A stretch of 64,000 nt of DNA, taken from assembly GCA_021154885.1 (NCBI GenBank), contig JAJKHS010000022.1, positions 1 to 64,000 of the forward strand, read 5' to 3'. The notes beneath the pieces were generated by a model. The model did not search any database and had not been told where the DNA came from. It saw only the letters and a program-made list of their open reading frames with translations. This DNA comes from Thermoanaerobaculum sp. Lineage in GTDB: Bacteria; Acidobacteriota; Thermoanaerobaculia; Multivoradales; UBA5704. The first letter of the stretch is position 1, and each line of letters starts with the position of its first letter. The position numbers and the translations under genes were made by a program. Below are positions 159-7,330 of the stretch, piece by piece.

Positions 159-476
159 TCAGTCCCTATCCCCGCGACGGCGGTCAAGGTCCGCGATGGA
201 CCGCGGGTCGTCGTCCTCCTCCACGCTCCCGCTCTCCGGCTGATAGTCGGCCGCCGCGAGGAGGTCGTCGATCAGGGGGTCCAGGCAGCTTTGGATGCCG
301 TTGGCGATGACGGTGCGTATCTCCGTCTCCACGTCCGGCTCGCCGTCGAGGTCTCCCTGCGAAGTCTCCTGCGCCGACGGTGGAACACTCGCCTGTACGC
401 CCAAGAGCCGGTAGCGGATCGACGTCAGATCTCCTGCGACAGCCCACATTTCCTTCCTTGCGCCTTTGATCATCAT
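159..476 (-). CDS. Small acidic hypothetical protein
   Basis: This 105-residue frame starts with a double ATG at 471-476, with GGAGACC upstream. It is rich in Asp and Glu in its second half and ends in a charged tail (EEDDDPRSIADLDRRRGDRD). No known domain is recognised. It lies between a HTH-like gene 32 bases upstream and a partial gene nine bases downstream, all on the minus strand, so it probably shares their transcript. The acidic composition would suit a partner or inhibitor protein, but this is only a guess. Confidence 0.55.
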   Translation of the reverse strand: MMIKGARKEMWAVAGDLTSIRYRLLGVQASVPPSAQETSQGDLDGEPDVETEIRTVIANGIQSCLDPLIDDLLAAADYQPESGSVEEDDDPRSIADLDRRRGDRD

Positions 477-508: not shown

Positions 509-805
509 TCAGCCCTCGGCTTCGACACCGCCCTGAACCTCTTGAAGAAGCGCTTCCAGGTCAGACAGGGAGACACCGTAGAAGCGCAGAAGGCTGTCCA
601 GAGTGTCGAGCCGGGGAGTCTTTCCGGGGCGTTCCTGGAGCATCCTGTTGCCGTACCGCCGAGGCGGTCTGTGTTCCAGGAGAGCCAGGTGCTCCTTGAC
701 CAGACCTGCTCCCGCCGCAACCTCCCTCACCGACCTGGCCCCCCGCAGTTTCCGGAGGACGATCGGCAGCCCGGCAAACAGCACCAGCGGTTTGACGTTC
801 GTCAT
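509..805 (-). CDS. Small XRE-like helix-turn-helix protein
   Basis: This 98-residue protein has the helix pattern of a short Cro/C1-type regulator: RKLRGARSVREVAAGAGL in the first half, then PGKTPRLDTLDSLLRFYG and SLSDLEALLQEVQ, which match the last helices of XRE domains. Its ATG at 803-805 overlaps the TGA of the upstream gene at 802-804, so the two are translationally coupled. The recognition helix is not a textbook one, so DNA binding is inferred. It probably regulates its own operon or the nearby TPR regulators. Confidence 0.6.
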   Translation of the reverse strand: MTNVKPLVLFAGLPIVLRKLRGARSVREVAAGAGLVKEHLALLEHRPPRRYGNRMLQERPGKTPRLDTLDSLLRFYGVSLSDLEALLQEVQGGVEAEG

Positions 806-1479
806 GGAATCTCCTCGCGCCCGCCATCGCGGACGATGAGCCTAGCCAAGTCCGCCAGGCGCTCCGCCTCCTCTGCGCTGGGAGAGGTCAACTGGTCCAG
901 GTAGACGAGCTCCGCCGCCAGGAGCTTCCTCAGGGCCTGCACGGCCTCTCGCCGGTTCCGCCCGGAAGCCGTGCTTCCCGCATCGGCGCAGAAGGCAGAG
1001 AAGGCCTTGCCGTCCGAGACCACGGAGACCGGAATCGGTTTTCGTAGCGTCAACCCGACGACGGGGAGCGTGGAGATCCAGGTGGTCGAGGAGGCTGGCC
1101 CTAGCGTCAGTGCCTTGATTCGCCTCCTGGCCAGCCGTGCCATCGCTTCGAGAGTGCTCGCCAGGGTCTTCAGGTCCCGCAGGACGTACCGGTGCTGATC
1201 GACGTCCCCTTCCACCTTGAACTTGGATGCGACCGGCCGTTCCTCATGATGCCGCCTCAGCAGGTCCAGGTCGGCGGGGGAGATGAACAGCCGGCCGGGT
1301 TTTCCCCGATGGACCATCAACAAGCCCTGCCGTTCGAGCTCGTGGACGTACTGCAGCACCAGCTCATACGGAATTCCCAGCAGGGACGAAGCGTCCGTGG
1401 GACTGAGCCTCTCCGCATTCATTTCCAGCCCCCGCGCTATCAGCGCCGCCTCCAGAGCCGGCCGGTCACCTGGAGACAC
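802..1479 (-). CDS. Winged-helix-like putative regulator
   Basis: The frame has a GTG start at 1479 and encodes up to 225 residues. Residues about 20-75 read as a winged helix: SPTDASSLLGIPYELVLQYV followed by LERQGLLMVHRGKPGRLFIS, the usual 'specificity loss plus wing' arrangement. The rest is a mixed helical and strand domain of unknown family. The GTG start overlaps the upstream small gene by 40 bases; an internal ATG, 19 codons in, would remove this overlap, so the exact start is uncertain. The gene is coupled by ATGA to the small HTH gene downstream. Confidence 0.6.
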   Translation of the reverse strand: MSPGDRPALEAALIARGLEMNAERLSPTDASSLLGIPYELVLQYVHELERQGLLMVHRGKPGRLFISPADLDLLRRHHEERPVASKFKVEGDVDQHRYVLRDLKTLASTLEAMARLARRRIKALTLGPASSTTWISTLPVVGLTLRKPIPVSVVSDGKAFSAFCADAGSTASGRNRREAVQALRKLLAAELVYLDQLTSPSAEEAERLADLARLIVRDGGREEIP

Positions 1480-1598: not shown

Positions 1599-1824
1599 GG
1601 TTTCCTCTTCTCTCTCAGCTCTGGCCGTATTTTCAGCAGAGCGCCTCTCTCTGGTACTCTGCACACGAGTAGAGGCGTAACTTCGCACGGTCAGAAGACA
1701 AGAAGAGTCATCACTAAGTGCAGAGGATTGTTTGGACCCGAAACTTTCCGGTCTGCGAGTGTCACGTTTGACCCGCTCAGCGCACTCAGCTTTTTGGAAG
1801 ACACTCACAGTGTGGAGGCTCTCG
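1599..1824. promoter_or_regulatory. Divergent intergenic region between the operon and regulator 1
   Basis: These 226 bases separate the minus-strand operon from the plus-strand HTH-TPR regulator, so both promoters should lie here. The sequence is less GC-rich than its surroundings. TTGACC at 1769-1774 could be a -35 element for the plus-strand gene, but no convincing -10 follows. GGAG near 1815 serves as ribosome site for the ATG at 1825. Confidence 0.35.
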
Positions 1825-3309
1825 ATGGCGGACAAGCTCACCTTCCGGCAGACGCTGCTCCAGATGCTCGCGGCCTACTGCAACCTGAGCTTCAAGGAGA
1901 TCGGCGCCCGCTGCGGCATGACCGAGAGGAACGTTTCGCACCACCTGCGGCGCAAACGGAAGCGCGACGAGATGAAGGACGACGTCTTCGAGCGGCTGCT
2001 GAGTGCCTTCCCCTGCTCGCCCGCGGCGGTGAGCGCGGTGGCGGCGTGCCTCGAATCCCTGGCGGACCTCGACTCCGGAGCTTCCGGGGACTTGACGGCC
2101 GAGGAGCTCGCAGAGATCGCGGAGGCGGAGCGCGGCGCCGCGCGCCTGACCCGGAAAGGACTCACCGAGGCCGCCCACCGCACCCGTGCCACCCCGGCCG
2201 AGGAGGGCTATCCGGAGCCGCACGAGGTCGCCCCCGCCCGCCGGCGGGCGGAAAAGCTGTTCCGCCGTCTGGCGGAGCTATCCCCGCCGATCCGGCTGGC
2301 GGTGGTCCGCGTGGTCGACCGGTACCATACTTGGGCCTTGTGTGAGCGGATCTGTGAGGCTTCAGTGAGAGAGGCCTCGCGCGACCTGGAGAGCGCGGCG
2401 GCCTGGGCGCGCACCGCTCGGGAGATCGCGCAGGGAGTCCGCGGGCCGCACTGGTGGCAGCGCCGCGTGCAGGGTTTCGCTGGCGGGTTCGGAGCCAACG
2501 TCGTGCGGGTGAAGGGTGAGCTGAAACCGGCCGCGGCGGACTTCGAGGCGGCCAAGCGGCTGTGGCTCTCCGGCACCGATCCCCTCGGGTTGCTCGATCC
2601 GGGGAGGATGCTCGACCTGGAGGCTTCGCTGCTACGGGATCAGCGCCATTTCCGCGAGGCCCTGACCTGCCTCGACGAAGCCGTGGCTGTGGGCCGAAGC
2701 CCGGAACGGGCGCTCATCAAGAAGGGCTTCACCTTGGAGGTGATGGGCGAGTACGAGCGGGCGATCGAAACCTTGGTGCAGGCGGAGCCTCTGGTGGAGC
2801 GCGTGGGCGATCCCCGCCTTTCGTACATGTTGCCTTTCAACCTCGCCGTATCTTACACCCACGTCGGTCGCTTCGATGAAGCAGCCGAGTTGGCGCAACG
2901 AGTGGGCGACCTTGCGGCGGCCCAAGCAGACGAGATCGAGCTCCTCCGCGTCCTCTGGCTCCGGGGCCGTATTCAAGCCGGCCTTGGGAGAAGGGAAGAG
3001 GCCCACATCCTTCTGGAGCAGGCCCGGCAGGAGTTTGACCGTCAGGGAATGGCGGCTGATGCCGCTCTGGCCCTGCTCGAAGAGGCGGTTCTGCTCCTGG
3101 ACGAGGACCGAATGGGCGAGGTCAAGGCACTGGCTGGCAATCTGACCAAGGTGCTTGTCTCCAAGGGGGTGCACCGGGAAGCCCTGGCCGCACTGCGGCT
3201 CTTTCAGGAAGCGGCCGAGCGCGAAGAGGCCACGGCCGAGCTGGCCCGCCGCGTCCTGCGCTATCTCTTCCGCGCCCGGCACGATCAGGGCCTCCGGTTC
3301 GAGTCATGA
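1825..3309 (+). CDS. HTH-TPR regulator 1 (RRNPP-like architecture)
   Basis: The ATG at 1825 (MADKLTF) has GGAG upstream and is preferred to an ATG at 1732, which adds sequence unlike the paralogue. The 494-residue product has a helix-turn-helix at about residues 21-46 (LSFKEIGARCGMTERNVSHH followed by a basic tail), a linker, and a long C-terminal array of tetratricopeptide-type helix pairs from about residue 180 to the end. From WALCERIC onward it is closely similar to the second regulator at 3648, while the N-terminal DNA-binding regions differ. HTH plus TPR is the layout of peptide-sensing RRNPP receptors. The stop codon overlaps the convergent small peptide gene within TCATGA. Confidence 0.85.
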   Translation: MADKLTFRQTLLQMLAAYCNLSFKEIGARCGMTERNVSHHLRRKRKRDEMKDDVFERLLSAFPCSPAAVSAVAACLESLADLDSGASGDLTAEELAEIAEAERGAARLTRKGLTEAAHRTRATPAEEGYPEPHEVAPARRRAEKLFRRLAELSPPIRLAVVRVVDRYHTWALCERICEASVREASRDLESAAAWARTAREIAQGVRGPHWWQRRVQGFAGGFGANVVRVKGELKPAAADFEAAKRLWLSGTDPLGLLDPGRMLDLEASLLRDQRHFREALTCLDEAVAVGRSPERALIKKGFTLEVMGEYERAIETLVQAEPLVERVGDPRLSYMLPFNLAVSYTHVGRFDEAAELAQRVGDLAAAQADEIELLRVLWLRGRIQAGLGRREEAHILLEQARQEFDRQGMAADAALALLEEAVLLLDEDRMGEVKALAGNLTKVLVSKGVHREALAALRLFQEAAEREEATAELARRVLRYLFRARHDQGLRFES

Positions 3310-3528
3310 GCCGGGGTTGCACCGGCCGTCGGGGTCCATCCCGCAGCCGATGTCTGAAGTTGGCTGCGGTGCAGGCAGGCATCTGCCGTTGGGGTCCATC
3401 CCGCAGCCCTCCTGCGCAGGCTGGCCCCAAAGCGATGAGACGAGGGTCCAGAGCGGCTGGAGGAAGCGGCTGGGAGAGAAGGTCGCAAGGGATGAGGCGA
3501 GGGTTACGGCGACGAGAGTGCGGCGCAT
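3304..3528 (-). CDS. Small secreted peptide 1 with two C-GMDPNGR-C motifs
   Basis: The ATG at 3526-3528 has GGAGG eight bases upstream, a strong ribosome site conserved in the second copy. The 74-residue product starts MRRTLVAVTLASSLATF, a signal-like segment with two arginines and a hydrophobic run, continues with a second hydrophobic patch (LQPLWTLVSSLW), and ends in two units, GCGMDPNGRC and GCGMDPDGRC, each a Cys-X7-Cys loop. It is convergent with regulator 1 and shares the palindrome TCATGA, which holds both stop codons. The paralogue at 5070-5354 has the same first 34 residues with two changes. A secreted signal or modified peptide precursor is inferred. Confidence 0.75.
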   Translation of the reverse strand: MRRTLVAVTLASSLATFSPSRFLQPLWTLVSSLWGQPAQEGCGMDPNGRCLPAPQPTSDIGCGMDPDGRCNPGS

Positions 3529-3647
3529 GGATCAGGACCTCCGCTGCGGCGCCGGCCGCGGGCCACCATGGCTCGGGCGGACCGCGCTCGCCATCTTAAG
3601 GTGCCCGGAAGGCGAAATTACGCCACTTTTCTTGGGGGGAGGGAGGA
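3529..3647. promoter_or_regulatory. Divergent region between peptide gene 1 and regulator 2
   Basis: These 119 bases must carry the promoters of peptide gene 1 (minus strand) and regulator 2 (plus strand). About 50 bases next to the peptide start are identical in the second copy of the module. TAAGAT, on the minus strand at 3593-3598, is a possible -10 for the peptide gene, without a good -35. GGGAGGGAGGA just before 3648 is the ribosome site of regulator 2. Confidence 0.4.
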
Positions 3648-5075
3648 ATGAAACGAGAGAACCTGAAGGCGCGCCTGCTCCGCGCCGTCTCCGGCAAGAC
3701 CCAGGAGCAGCTCGGCGAGGAGATCGGCGTCCATCCCGGGCTCATCGGACAGATCGAGCAGGGCAGGGTCCTGGCGCGGCCGGACTATCTGGAGCGACTA
3801 GCGGCGAACGCCGGCATCACGGCTGCGGACGCGGAGGAGCTCCTCTGCCACTACGAAATGCTCCGCGTTGCTCGCCGCCGGCATGGCCGGAGCGCCGAGG
3901 ACGTTCTGGAAGGGCTTGTCGAGGACCTCCGCTCCCACGCCCGGGCGAGCTACCAGCGGCTGGAGACCCTGCCGCTTCCGGCGAGCGCTCCCCGGGCCGA
4001 GGACCGCGTGCGGGCCGCCGAGCTTTTCGAGCGCCTGGCGGAGCTGTCTCCCGAAGAGCGGCGGACGGTGGTCCGTCTGGAAGAGGAGCTTCAAACCTGG
4101 GCCCTGTGCGAGAGGGTGTGCCACGCCTCAGCCCGAGAGGCCTCTCGCGACGTCGAGCTGGCGACGGCCTGGGCTGGCCTCGCGAGTGAGATCGCGGAGT
4201 TGGTGCGCGGGCCGGAGGGGTTTCCCCTTCGTGTGCAAGGCTACTCCGGGGGGCATGGCGCCAACGTCCTGCGGGTCTTGGGCGAGCTGAAGACGGCGGA
4301 CGTTGCCTTCTCTGCGGCGAAGCGGCTGTGGCTCTCCGGCTCCGATCCTCTCGATCTGCTCGACCAGGGAAGGATGCTCGACCTGGAAGCTTCTCTGCGC
4401 AGAGATCAGCGCCGTTTCGCTGAGGCCCTTGCTCTCCTTGATGAAGCTTTGGTCGTGGGCCGCAGCCCGGAGCGTGCGCTCATCAAGAAGGGCTTCACCT
4501 TGGAGGTGATGGGCGAGTACGAGCGGGCGATCGAGACGTTGGTGCGTGCGGAGCCTCTGGTGGAGCGCGCGGGCGATCCTTGCCTGACGTACATGCTGCC
4601 CTTCAATCTGGCCGTGAACTACACGCACATCCGCCGCTACGACGAAGCGGCCGAGTTGGCCCGCCGGGTGGGTGATCTGGTGGCGGTCCAAGGAGATAAG
4701 ATCGCGGCTCTCCGTGTCATCTGGCTCCGAGGCCGAATTGAGGCCGGTTTGGGCCATAGGCTAGAAGCCCGGAGCCTTCTGGAAGAGGCGCGGCTAGACT
4801 TCAATAGACGTGGGATGGCGGCTGATGCAGCCCTGGCTCTGTTGGAAGAGGCGGCACTGCTCTTAGATGAGGGTCGAAGATCCGAGGTAAAGGCGCTGGC
4901 TGGCGAGCTGACCAAGGTGCTTGACTCCAAGGGAGTACACCGGGAAGCCCTGGCCGCCCTGCGGCTCTTCAAGGAGACAGCAGTGCGCGAAGAGGCCACG
5001 GCCGAACTGGCCCGCCGCGTCCTGGGCTACCTCTTCCGCGCCCGGCACGACCAGGGCCTCCGCTTCGAGTCATGA
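3648..5075 (+). CDS. HTH-TPR regulator 2 (RRNPP-like architecture)
   Basis: The 475-residue product starts at ATG 3648 after a strong GGGAGGGAGGA. Residues 17-40 form a canonical XRE helix-turn-helix (KTQEQLGEEIGVHPGLIGQI), followed by a helical linker and TPR-like helix pairs to the end. From about residue 140 it aligns with regulator 1 almost without gaps, including EALTLDEAL-type helices, SPERALIKKGFTLEVMGEYE and the shared C-terminus RARHDQGLRFES. The two paralogues therefore share a ligand-type domain but use different DNA-binding domains. Its end overlaps peptide gene 2 by six bases, as in copy 1. A transcription regulator sensing a peptide is inferred. Confidence 0.87.
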   Translation: MKRENLKARLLRAVSGKTQEQLGEEIGVHPGLIGQIEQGRVLARPDYLERLAANAGITAADAEELLCHYEMLRVARRRHGRSAEDVLEGLVEDLRSHARASYQRLETLPLPASAPRAEDRVRAAELFERLAELSPEERRTVVRLEEELQTWALCERVCHASAREASRDVELATAWAGLASEIAELVRGPEGFPLRVQGYSGGHGANVLRVLGELKTADVAFSAAKRLWLSGSDPLDLLDQGRMLDLEASLRRDQRRFAEALALLDEALVVGRSPERALIKKGFTLEVMGEYERAIETLVRAEPLVERAGDPCLTYMLPFNLAVNYTHIRRYDEAAELARRVGDLVAVQGDKIAALRVIWLRGRIEAGLGHRLEARSLLEEARLDFNRRGMAADAALALLEEAALLLDEGRRSEVKALAGELTKVLDSKGVHREALAALRLFKETAVREEATAELARRVLGYLFRARHDQGLRFES

Positions 5076-5354
5076 GCCGGGATTGCACCGGCCGCTGGGG
5101 TCCATCCCGCAGCCACCATCGAGCTGCGGCTGGGCTTGCGGCAGGCACCGACCGTTGGGATCCATCCCGCAGCCGATGTCTGAAGTTGGCTGCTGTGCAG
5201 GCTGGCGCCGGCCGTTGGGATCCATCCCGCAGCCTTCCTGGGCCGGCTGGCACCAAAGCGACGAGACGAGGGTCCAGAGCGGCTGGAGGAAGCGGCTGGG
5301 AGAGAAGGTCGCGAGGGCTGAGGCGAGGGTTACGGCGACGAGTGTGCGGCGCAT
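5070..5354 (-). CDS. Small secreted peptide 2 with three GMDPNGR motifs
   Basis: The 94-residue paralogue of the peptide at 3304-3528 starts at ATG 5352-5354 with the same GGAGG ribosome site. The signal-like N-terminus is nearly identical. The tail carries three units, GCGMDPNGRR, GCGMDPNGRC and GCGMDPSGRC, separated by Pro/Gln-rich spacers, so it has one unit more than copy 1, and its first unit has lost the second cysteine. The DNA shows the matching repeated block (GGATCCATCCCGCAGCC on the plus strand). It is convergent with regulator 2. Unit gain by slippage and conservation of the coding frame argue for a real peptide. Confidence 0.75.
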   Translation of the reverse strand: MRRTLVAVTLASALATFSPSRFLQPLWTLVSSLWCQPAQEGCGMDPNGRRQPAQQPTSDIGCGMDPNGRCLPQAQPQLDGGCGMDPSGRCNPGS

Positions 5355-5633
5355 GGATCAGGACCTCCGCTGCGGCGCCGGCCGCGGGCCACCATGGCTC
5401 GGGCGGGCCGCGTCCGCACATCATGGTGCTTCCGGCGCGGCTCGCGGAGGAAATTTCCCGTTCTCATGCTAGTGGCGAGAGCTCCTGCCGGGACAGCGAC
5501 GGCTCCTGCCCGGCCAGCGACGACTGCTGCCGAGGGCAGCGACGGCTCACGCCGAGGTTGCAGGGACCGCGGAGGAGCTTGTGGACCTGACAGGAGGCCG
5601 CCGAGCGCGAGCCTACGCGGCAGAAAAGCCGAA

Positions 5634-5764
5634 GACAAAGACATCAAGGACATCAAGGACATCAAGGACACCAAGGACAGCAGGGACAATAAATACCAGA
5701 CTTGGCATCCTCTCCGTGTCTTTGAGGTCCTTGTCGTCCCTGATGTCCTTGAAGTCCTTGCTTT
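5634..5764. repeat. 9-bp GACATCAAG array forming an inverted repeat
   Basis: About five copies of GACATCAAG (with drift to GACACCAAG and GACAGCAGG) are followed, after some 30 bases, by about five copies of the reverse complement (GTCCTTGAA type). The two arms could fold into a long imperfect hairpin. The element sits between peptide gene 2 and the SEC-C gene; the rest of 5355-5773 shows no gene that I can support. Similar arrays occur at 51604-51700 and, as a single arm, at 36044-36079. Confidence 0.75.
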
Positions 5765-5773
5765 TTGTTTCTG

Positions 5774-7330
5774 CTAAGGAATCTCCTCCCCTTCCTCCAC
5801 CCCCCCGGGATCGAGGACGTCCAGCCATTGCCGCAGCTCGCGCCCCCGGTCCGGCTCGCCCAGGCGCTCCGCCTGGATCGCGGCGGCGACGATCAGCGCC
5901 AGGGCCGAGCCGTTGGGCTCGGCGTTGTCGGGCAGGCGGGTGATCCCGGGATGGGCGGCGAGGGCCTGCCGGACGGCTGCCAGGCCGCGGTCGAGGACCG
6001 GCTTGAGGAGCCGCCGGTCGAGGAAGGGGTAGCGGTCGAGCCCGAGCTCGGAAACGGAGTGGGCGAGGTCCTCCAGGATCTCCACGCTGTCCAGGGCGGC
6101 GGGCTCGTCCAGGAGATAGGCGAGCCAGCGCGCGGCGTCCTCCTCGGACCAGGGATCGAGCTCGTCGTCCTCGTCGTTCTCCTCGTCCCCGTCGGAGTCG
6201 AGCTCCGGGACCGCGCCGAAGAACGCCTGGTCCCAGCCCTCCTCCGCCCGCTGCAGCGCGGCGGGGGGCGCGAGCCGGCCGGCCCCCGAATCGCCGATCC
6301 GCTGGATCTCATAGGTCGCGGCCGGCGCCGGGAGCCGGGCCAGCAGCTCCTGGAGCCGGAGGATGCCGTCCTTGACCTCCTCGCCGAGGGAGAATTCGAG
6401 CTGGGCGGCCTCGGGGTCGGCGGCGACCTTGTCGAGGAACTCCATCCCCACCTCGGTGATCATCCCCGGCTCGCGCCGGAAGCGCTCGCGGAAGAAGCGC
6501 GCCCGCTCGCCGGCCTCCGCCGTCCGCCCCTCGGACATCAGCAGGCTCACCTCCAGAGGGCCGAGGGCGGCGCTCTCGGGATCGTCCTGCCGCGCCTTCT
6601 CCAGAGCCGCCCAGGCCTCGTCGAGCTCGCCCTCGACGGCGTGGGCGCGGACCTGGTTCTCCCAGAGCACGGCGCGCAGGGCCGGCTTGAGGGACTTCGC
6701 CAGCCGCTCCACGGCCGCGGCCTTCTCCTCCAGCAGGTCCAGGTGGTCGTGGGCTTCGAGGAAGGCGTTCAGGGCCGCCGCGTCCCGGTCGTCGAGACGA
6801 TCGGAACGGTCAAACATGGGCTGAACGAGGGCCAGGGCACGCTCGGGATCGCCGTCGTCCAGGAACGAGGTCGCGAGATCGCCCACGAGGTGCCGGGGAA
6901 CCCGGCCGGACTGGCCCAGCGCCTCCACCTGCTCCAGGGGGAGCGCCTCCACGACGAGCCGCCAGATCCCCTCCGGATCGAACGACGGCACCTCCGCCGC
7001 CCACGGTGCGCAGCACTTCTTGTACTTGAGGCCGGAGCCGCACGGGCAGGGGTCGTTGCGCTCCGGCTCGGGGAGAGGCCGGGAGCGGAAGCCGTTGCCC
7101 GGCAGCGGTACCGAGCTCCACAGGGCGCGCCCGAGCTCCGACGCCGAGCTGCGCCGGGCCGCCTCGTCCGGGAGCCGCTCGAACAGTCGTGGCAGGCGGT
7201 CCGCGGCCTCCTGCCGCACCCAGGCCAGGAAGGCCTCGCTGTCCTCCCGCTCCAGAATGCGCGCAATGGCCTCCCGGAAAAAGGTCTCCAGCTCGTCGAT
7301 GGTCTCGTCGTCGAAGGTCTCTTCGGTCAT
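5774..7330 (-). CDS. SEC-C zinc-motif protein with a long helical region
   Basis: The 518-residue protein has a SEC-C motif at residues 92-107 (NDPCPCGSGLKYKKCC), the zinc site best known from the SecA C-terminus. An acidic N-terminal helical region precedes it, and about 400 residues of Ala/Leu/Glu-rich helices follow, which look TPR-like (for example DPERALALVQPMFDRSDRLD), with a very acidic stretch near residue 385. SEC-C usually lies at a terminus, so the internal position is unusual. The family is thought to bind other proteins or ribosomes; the role here is unknown. The gene stands alone, with AAGGCAAG as ribosome site. Confidence 0.8.
   Translation of the reverse strand: MTEETFDDETIDELETFFREAIARILEREDSEAFLAWVRQEAADRLPRLFERLPDEAARRSSASELGRALWSSVPLPGNGFRSRPLPEPERNDPCPCGSGLKYKKCCAPWAAEVPSFDPEGIWRLVVEALPLEQVEALGQSGRVPRHLVGDLATSFLDDGDPERALALVQPMFDRSDRLDDRDAAALNAFLEAHDHLDLLEEKAAAVERLAKSLKPALRAVLWENQVRAHAVEGELDEAWAALEKARQDDPESAALGPLEVSLLMSEGRTAEAGERARFFRERFRREPGMITEVGMEFLDKVAADPEAAQLEFSLGEEVKDGILRLQELLARLPAPAATYEIQRIGDSGAGRLAPPAALQRAEEGWDQAFFGAVPELDSDGDEENDEDDELDPWSEEDAARWLAYLLDEPAALDSVEILEDLAHSVSELGLDRYPFLDRRLLKPVLDRGLAAVRQALAAHPGITRLPDNAEPNGSALALIVAAAIQAERLGEPDRGRELRQWLDVLDPGGVEEGEEIP

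Follow-up and report, generated by a model that had tools for sequence, protein, structure and literature searches.

Comparison with known systems

Peptide signalling through cytoplasmic tetratricopeptide repeat (TPR) receptors is described for the Firmicutes and their mobile elements; the Acidobacteriota are a diderm phylum. The stretch of acidobacterial DNA analysed here (the window) comprises 64,000 nucleotides, positions 1-64000 of contig C22 (JAJKHS010000022.1), from an 8.2 Mb Thermoanaerobaculum sp. genome in 161 contigs. Near its left-hand end, two TPR regulators with helix-turn-helix (HTH) domains each face a convergent gene for a small peptide. The host genome holds dozens of copies of a two-gene unit of this kind, composed of a small, apparently exported peptide and a TPR regulator. 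The unit looks like a previously undescribed peptide-sensing system, with an origin apart from that of the Gram-positive ones.

The closest described systems in layout are the RRNPP systems (Rap-Phr, NprR-NprX, PlcR-PapR, PrgX and Rgg, together with AimR-AimP), which are described for Gram-positive Firmicutes and for which five layout criteria, applied here, have been set out (RRNPP_detector, PMC10075063). As in those systems, an adjacent gene pair encodes a TPR receptor, with an N-terminal HTH in one class, and a small pro-peptide of predicted exported type whose presumed active unit lies near the C-terminus; multiple paralogous pairs occur, and the modelled TPR domain of one window receptor matches Rap structures among others. 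The two window receptors (494 and 475 aa) are within the 250–500 aa of an RRNPP receptor with TPRs, and the pro-peptide gene lies by a receptor gene at all 31 peptide places described below. RRNPP pro-peptides are Sec-secreted and 10–100 aa long; those of the window have 74 and 94 aa and N-termini that are signal-like by inspection, and some relatives reach 192 aa. The system differs from RRNPP in its diderm host, in receptors nested within finger-TPR proteins tied to extracytoplasmic function (ECF) sigma genes, in repeated and often Cys-stapled G-x-x-phi-DP[ND]G units, in the convergent layout of its HTH class and in its dozens of pairs per genome. No RRNPP-specific Pfam or NCBIfam model matched at the thresholds used, and no homology to a known RRNPP subfamily was found beyond the TPR/HTH fold, the PDB sequence search returning PlcR over the HTH only (E 0.54). 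Because the TPR tree nests the receptors in finger-TPR proteins and no RRNPP-specific model matched, they are not RRNPP by descent. The first-pass annotation had proposed an RRNPP-type circuit: its pairing and RRNPP-like layout in Acidobacteriota stand, and membership by descent does not.

Two ECF-associated designs also resemble the receptors. Many finger-TPR proteins carry an N-terminal H-x3/4-C-x2-C sequence like that of the zinc-finger (ZAS/zf-HC2) anti-sigma factors, and some stand directly behind an ECF sigma gene. In contrast to the ECF/ZAS pairs, a TPR domain stands where the partner-sensing part usually lies, zf-HC2 is barely matched, and most peptide loci lack a sigma gene. ECF42 sigma factors likewise couple a TPR module to an ECF sigma, as a C-terminal extension (PMC8999054); in that case TPR and sigma factor make up one fused protein, whereas here the TPR belongs to a separate, peptide-paired protein with a finger or an HTH. 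A literature search found nothing on this system or combining RRNPP with Acidobacteria; since most subscription journals were outside its coverage, novelty is likely, not proven.

Regulators and peptide genes of the window

Regulator A (1825..3309, + strand) is a 494-aa member of the TPR family, with a TPR domain (Pfam TPR_12, 1e-7) and an HTH resembling sigma-70 region 4 in a weak, sub-cut-off match (6.1e-5). Downstream in tandem, regulator B (3648..5075, + strand; 475 aa) has an XRE-type HTH (HTH_31, 4.8e-9, and HTH_3) and a TPR domain modelled as a superhelix. Peptide genes A (3304..3528, - strand; 74 aa) and B (5070..5354, - strand; 94 aa) are convergent, each extending 6 bp into the 3′-end of its own regulator, and both products have a signal-like N-terminus by inspection. 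Peptide A has a W-rich segment and two GCGMDP[ND]GRC units, GCGMDPNGRC (3379..3408, - strand) and GCGMDPDGRC (3319..3348, - strand). Peptide B shares the W-rich segment and has three units, all on the - strand: GCGMDPNGRR (5205..5234), in which the second Cys is replaced by Arg, GCGMDPNGRC (5145..5174) and GCGMDPSGRC (5085..5114). The intergenic region between the divergent starts of peptide A and regulator B (3529..3647) is, in its peptide-side part, nearly identical to the stretch upstream of peptide B. The TPR parts of the two regulators are about 75% identical and their N-terminal DNA-binding parts are unrelated; both regulators lack the H-x3-C-x2-C finger, and there is no ECF sigma gene at the locus. 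Reading of the open reading frames (ORFs) thus bears out, in gene content and coordinates, the first-pass description of two HTH-TPR genes with similar TPR and different DNA-binding domains, each with a tail-to-tail small gene.

Linkage of peptide and TPR genes

A single-peptide query located 31 places in the genome (E up to 10), a peptide-only profile built from 25 peptides also located 31 (E up to 0.001), and a profile of the TPR part located 73. All 31 profile-found peptide places are within 1.34 kb of a TPR-family place, where about one would be expected by chance. As the DNA within 1.5 kb of a TPR-family place amounts to 3.0% of the genome, the pairing is not a chance result, and the check proposed in the first-pass annotation, for peptide genes apart from TPR genes, favours pairing in this genome. 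Direct reading of the DNA around almost all TPR places revealed extra peptides below the reach of the profile, some of them with a single unit. Relatives of the unit, with or without cysteines, are found across the class, and the linkage is retained in several of the order's families, where it takes three forms: peptide upstream, peptide upstream with a sigma gene, and peptide convergent. A peptide search of limited sensitivity in 396 genomes of the phylum found no peptide outside the class; its three genomes with a match are a lower bound, because 11 candidates per genome were scored.

Two loci (L113:3310-5145 and L092:4083-5629) have three peptide genes in tandem, and the nearest TPR gene at the former is a fragment. 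One sequence from a record titled Deltaproteobacteria (L161; JAHZIX010000044.1) has a sigma protein and a peptide identical to those of an acidobacterial genome of the same order (L168), and the record is probably a mislabelled metagenome-assembled genome (MAG).

The peptide family

The constant core of the family is G-x-x-[IMLVW]-D-P-[ND]-G. The collected set comprises 71 distinct peptides with 158 units, in which D, P and the second G were fixed by the search itself. The first G is present in 146/158 units and is followed by a variable pair, a mostly hydrophobic residue (phi), D-P, mostly N or D, and G. Cys-X7-Cys repeats, which the first-pass annotation noted in the small genes, are present in the window peptides; they are the trait of one sub-family, and many units are Cys-free. 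In the locus table, one row was corrected by hand as a false peptide (L101_3056), two others were in the wrong frame at loci that do have a real peptide (L103 and L108), and a few rows are duplicates.

The last unit ends no more than 6 aa from the C-terminus in 56 of the 71 peptides. At the variable positions, units of one peptide agree at 74%, compared with 35% between peptides, and none of 1000 label shuffles reached so high a value. The peptide genes of the window differ with dN 0.077 and dS 0.295 (dN/dS 0.26), and pairwise dN/dS is about 0.2–0.4 in most comparisons. Within the peptides of L156 and L149, the units have the same or almost the same protein sequence and differ at silent sites, which indicates selection on the protein sequence of the unit. 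Together, the substitution patterns demonstrate protein-level constraint on the peptide frames. A spurious antisense ORF was considered and is ruled out by the 71 homologues and the constrained frames. Searches of NCBIfam, PHROGs and PADLOC assigned the peptide to no known family at a meaningful E-value, and Pfam gave a chance match only (E 0.4). DP[ND]G is a classic tight-turn former, and the unit may be a small hairpin.

Receptor types and locus layout

Three N-terminal types occur on the common TPR domain: an XRE-like HTH, a sigma-70 region-4-like HTH, and the finger. In 35 finger-TPR proteins, the H, C and C of the finger are invariant, with a spacing of H-x3/4-C-x2-C; since Pfam zf-HC2 matched 1/35 of them, and weakly (E 0.009), any anti-sigma activity is putative. 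The layout of the locus follows the N-terminal domain of the receptor. At 16 HTH-TPR loci (one false call removed) the peptide gene is convergent, and at about 45 non-redundant finger-TPR loci, including those with degenerate fingers, it is upstream on the same strand and usually directly adjacent, sometimes with an ECF sigma gene as well; one finger-TPR locus is convergent. The linkage persists in the convergent HTH form, in which the two genes are not co-transcribed. The receptor ORFs begin with an HTH or a finger and have no evident signal sequence, so that the receptor appears to be cytoplasmic. AlphaFold predicts a TPR superhelix for regulator B (pLDDT 89.2). Its top matches among solved structures are LGN together with RapI and pheromone-bound RapJ (4gyo), the Rap matches scoring TMq 0.49-0.50; the predicted fold is compatible with peptide binding without being specific to it.

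At eight loci (L100, L118, L119, L123, L124, L125, L143 and L156), the finger-TPR gene is followed tail to tail by a small gene of the XRE-type HTH kind, possibly a separate DNA-binding partner where the receptor has no HTH. At L091:1442-3835, a 797-aa open frame contains two consecutive HTH-TPR units, a possible fusion or assembly joint.

Co-divergence and homogenisation within loci

Peptide and TPR distances are correlated across 62 pairs (Mantel r 0.58; 0/2000 permutations), so peptide and receptor sequences co-diverge. At three loci with tandem receptors (the window, L094 and L097), TPR identity is 76–81% within a locus compared with 58–66% between loci, whereas the HTH parts are 15–22% identical within a locus and 38–65% identical, by type, between loci. 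At the window and L094, the similar tract extends further, across the peptide gene and the stretch upstream of it. These alignments establish that receptor and peptide are homogenised within a locus, which is attributed to conversion between neighbours; both receptors of one locus would therefore face the same peptide type. The first-pass suggestion that one signal family drives two regulons is strengthened accordingly by three loci at which TPR domains are alike within and HTH domains match by type between loci.

Probable descent from ECF sigma/anti-sigma-like loci

In a quick tree of 99 TPR domains, all HTH-TPR proteins form one clade (support 100) nested within finger-TPR genes that have a peptide. 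The nearest relatives of the clade are the peptide-bearing finger-type genes of L106 and L109, followed by those of L104, L111, L117 and L167. In other families of the order, many single-copy relatives immediately follow an ECF sigma gene and lack a peptide (L178-L183, L186 and L188-L190). Intermediate loci combine peptide, sigma and finger-TPR genes (L148, L161, L171 and L175), and others have mini-genes of about 77–101 aa, in two families, that encode sigma-70 region 2 only and lie between the peptide and finger-TPR genes (L108:2823-3128, L110:4330-4572, L170 and L173). A full sigma gene is present at 20/107 classified TPR rows (duplicates included), mostly rows without a peptide gene, and most peptide-bearing loci have retained the peptide and have no sigma gene. 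The likely path is that a sigma and finger-TPR locus gained a peptide and lost its sigma gene, after which the finger was replaced by an HTH and the peptide came to lie on the convergent side; its direction is inferential, the tree being unrooted. On the best reading of the sequences, the receptor family would be RRNPP-like in its working and descended from ECF sigma/anti-sigma-like loci.

Flanking genes and a shared upstream element

Upstream of regulator A lies a divergent block of three genes, all on the - strand. The first gene of this operon (802..1479) encodes a winged-HTH-like protein of 225 aa with a homologue at one other HTH-TPR locus, and the second (509..805) an HTH-like protein of 98 aa with homologues at three other HTH-TPR loci. 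The third (159..476) encodes a small acidic protein of 105 aa, predicted to be a helical hairpin, which has no NCBIfam match. Members of its family occur exclusively next to TPR genes and are usually transcribed divergently from the leading HTH-TPR gene: all 11 copies in the genome adjoin TPR genes, 10 of them at HTH-TPR loci. The whole block (159-1479) is found again at L099, where the adjacent receptor has another type of HTH; upstream block and receptor type have therefore been shuffled. No transport, modification, enzyme or immunity gene recurs at most pairs; only the small acidic and small XRE genes do. A defence or phage element was also considered, and PADLOC and PHROG gave no relevant matches beyond generic HTH/TPR.

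An element of the form GTGTCACG-N15-GCA (1759..1784, + strand) precedes regulator A and is common to leading HTH-TPR genes genome-wide. The consensus GTGTCACR-N15-GCA occurs upstream of leading HTH-TPR starts independently of HTH type, and 10 of its 23 genome-wide matches are at leading HTH-TPR loci, at L106 (the close finger-TPR relative) or at a remnant locus on C28; the reversed control has 11 matches in total genome-wide. The element is a putative promoter or operator. Its −35 part is nearly the same as that of the ECF41 promoter, TGTCACA-n16-CGTC (PMC3426412), and its −10-like part differs. ECF41 was ruled out as its user, there being no ECF41-type sigma above the cut-off of the model in this genome.

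Three further features adjoin the locus. An ORF on the - strand (1440-1841) has at its end a finger sequence (HPTPAELGRFMRAESPRAEACAVLRHLLTSCPQC) that no TPR follows, and is likely the remnant of a finger-TPR gene. Just beyond the end of the cassette, at 5630-5770, short tandem GACATCAAG-type repeats are followed by an imperfect inverted copy. The next gene (5774-7330, - strand) encodes a protein of 518 aa that carries a SEC-C-like CPCGSGLKYKKCC motif and for which no tie to the peptide-receptor finding was seen.

Proposed mechanism and alternatives

The explanation that we favour, at somewhat better than even confidence, is that each locus encodes a TPR receptor together with its own exported pro-peptide, which is sensed after re-entry and changes transcription nearby. 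We infer export, processing, import, binding and regulatory output as follows. The pro-peptide would be carried out of the cell by its signal sequence, and at least one of the G-x-x-phi-D-P-[ND]-G units close to its C-terminal end would be freed or exposed. The DP[ND]G turn would fold the unit into a tight hairpin, and in the sub-family of the window a C-x7-C disulphide would staple it. The units would then re-enter the cell and bind the TPR superhelix; the genome encodes two SBP_bac_5 oligopeptide-binding proteins, so peptide import is possible. Binding would alter the contact with DNA in HTH-TPR receptors, or with a partner in finger-TPR receptors, and hence the transcription of nearby genes, with the receptor's own gene and the divergent gene for the small acidic protein as the first candidate targets. 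Many paralogous pairs with different units would provide parallel, mostly private channels.

Several points weigh against this explanation. The host phylum is diderm, so that an exported peptide would have two membranes to pass on its way out and again on its way back. Signal peptides were assessed by eye and from composition, and a hydrophobic N-terminus was itself a criterion of the motif-based search. Peptide dN/dS is not low everywhere, reaching 0.76 in two comparisons (about 0.7 in the L094 pair). The fold of regulator B is a generic TPR superhelix, to which LGN and kinesin light chain score as highly as Rap. Some second-copy HTH-TPR genes, e.g., those of L097 and L099, have no detected peptide, and the relatives in named records are from uncultured Acidobacteria MAGs, including 'Holophagales bacterium UBA5704' and 'gp7 AA5'. 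The Mantel correlation and joint duplication would also be expected from tandem inheritance and gene conversion.

The best-surviving alternative, although unlikely, is that the peptide is an output, i.e., an exported antimicrobial, surface or matrix effector controlled by a TPR regulator that senses something else. Linked regulator and product genes are common, and the peptides, at 45–192 aa, are mostly longer than a bare pheromone precursor; many have a W-rich segment, they contain up to nine units, and C-x7-C units could be disulphide-stabilised effector modules. However, genes for transport, immunity or modification do not recur by the pairs, and some peptides comprise just a signal sequence and one C-terminal unit, such as that of 45 aa ending in GPAMDPDG. 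Receptor and peptide also co-diverge, and their linkage has outlasted changes of layout and of DNA-binding domain.

Sensing in cis is distinctly less probable. Here, the TPR protein, acting as a chaperone or a gauge of export, would bind the peptide before it leaves the cell or as it does so; free receptor would report exit of the precursor, with no extracellular signalling. Such a role suits a receptor that appears, from its HTH or finger N-terminus, to be cytoplasmic, where the precursor starts; TPR proteins are common as chaperones, and no return across two membranes is needed. Repeated units of identical protein sequence near the C-terminus are nevertheless more in keeping with a ligand that is processed or multivalent than with a site for a chaperone, and the HTH and finger outputs suggest regulation.

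Less credence still is given to an anti-sigma switch in which the finger-TPR protein contacts an ECF sigma, the peptide adjusts that contact and HTH forms are a late re-wiring, with no signalling between cells. The single-copy relatives directly behind ECF sigma genes, the intermediate loci and the region-2-only remnants described above are all consistent with it, but most peptide-bearing loci have kept the peptide without a sigma gene, and zf-HC2 is weakly matched. Spread of a two-gene cassette by tandem duplication and conversion with no functional link is very improbable: the copies are indeed paralogous and often in tandem, with conversion tracts spanning TPR and peptide, yet the linkage holds across several families in three arrangements, the peptide frames are constrained, and duplication alone cannot re-pair genes after a change of layout.

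A wider form of the favoured explanation, in which exported peptides are sensed by paired receptors, is tentative and on balance doubtful. It would have peptide communication between diderm cells arise independently of RRNPP from ECF sigma/anti-sigma-like TPR proteins, with tens of parallel private channels per cell and with homogenisation of the TPR and peptide sequences keeping tandem receptors of different DNA-binding domains tuned to one local peptide.

Implications

The pairs offer function candidates for dozens of otherwise anonymous genes per genome. If sensing of the paired peptides is confirmed, a separate origin in a phylum that is diderm and mostly uncultured would mean that the TPR-peptide signalling design is repeatable, and would suggest a route to it, in which a sigma/anti-sigma-like TPR locus gains a peptide and then has its finger swapped for an HTH. 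The family would also provide a large natural set of matched peptide-receptor pairs from which a specificity code may be read.

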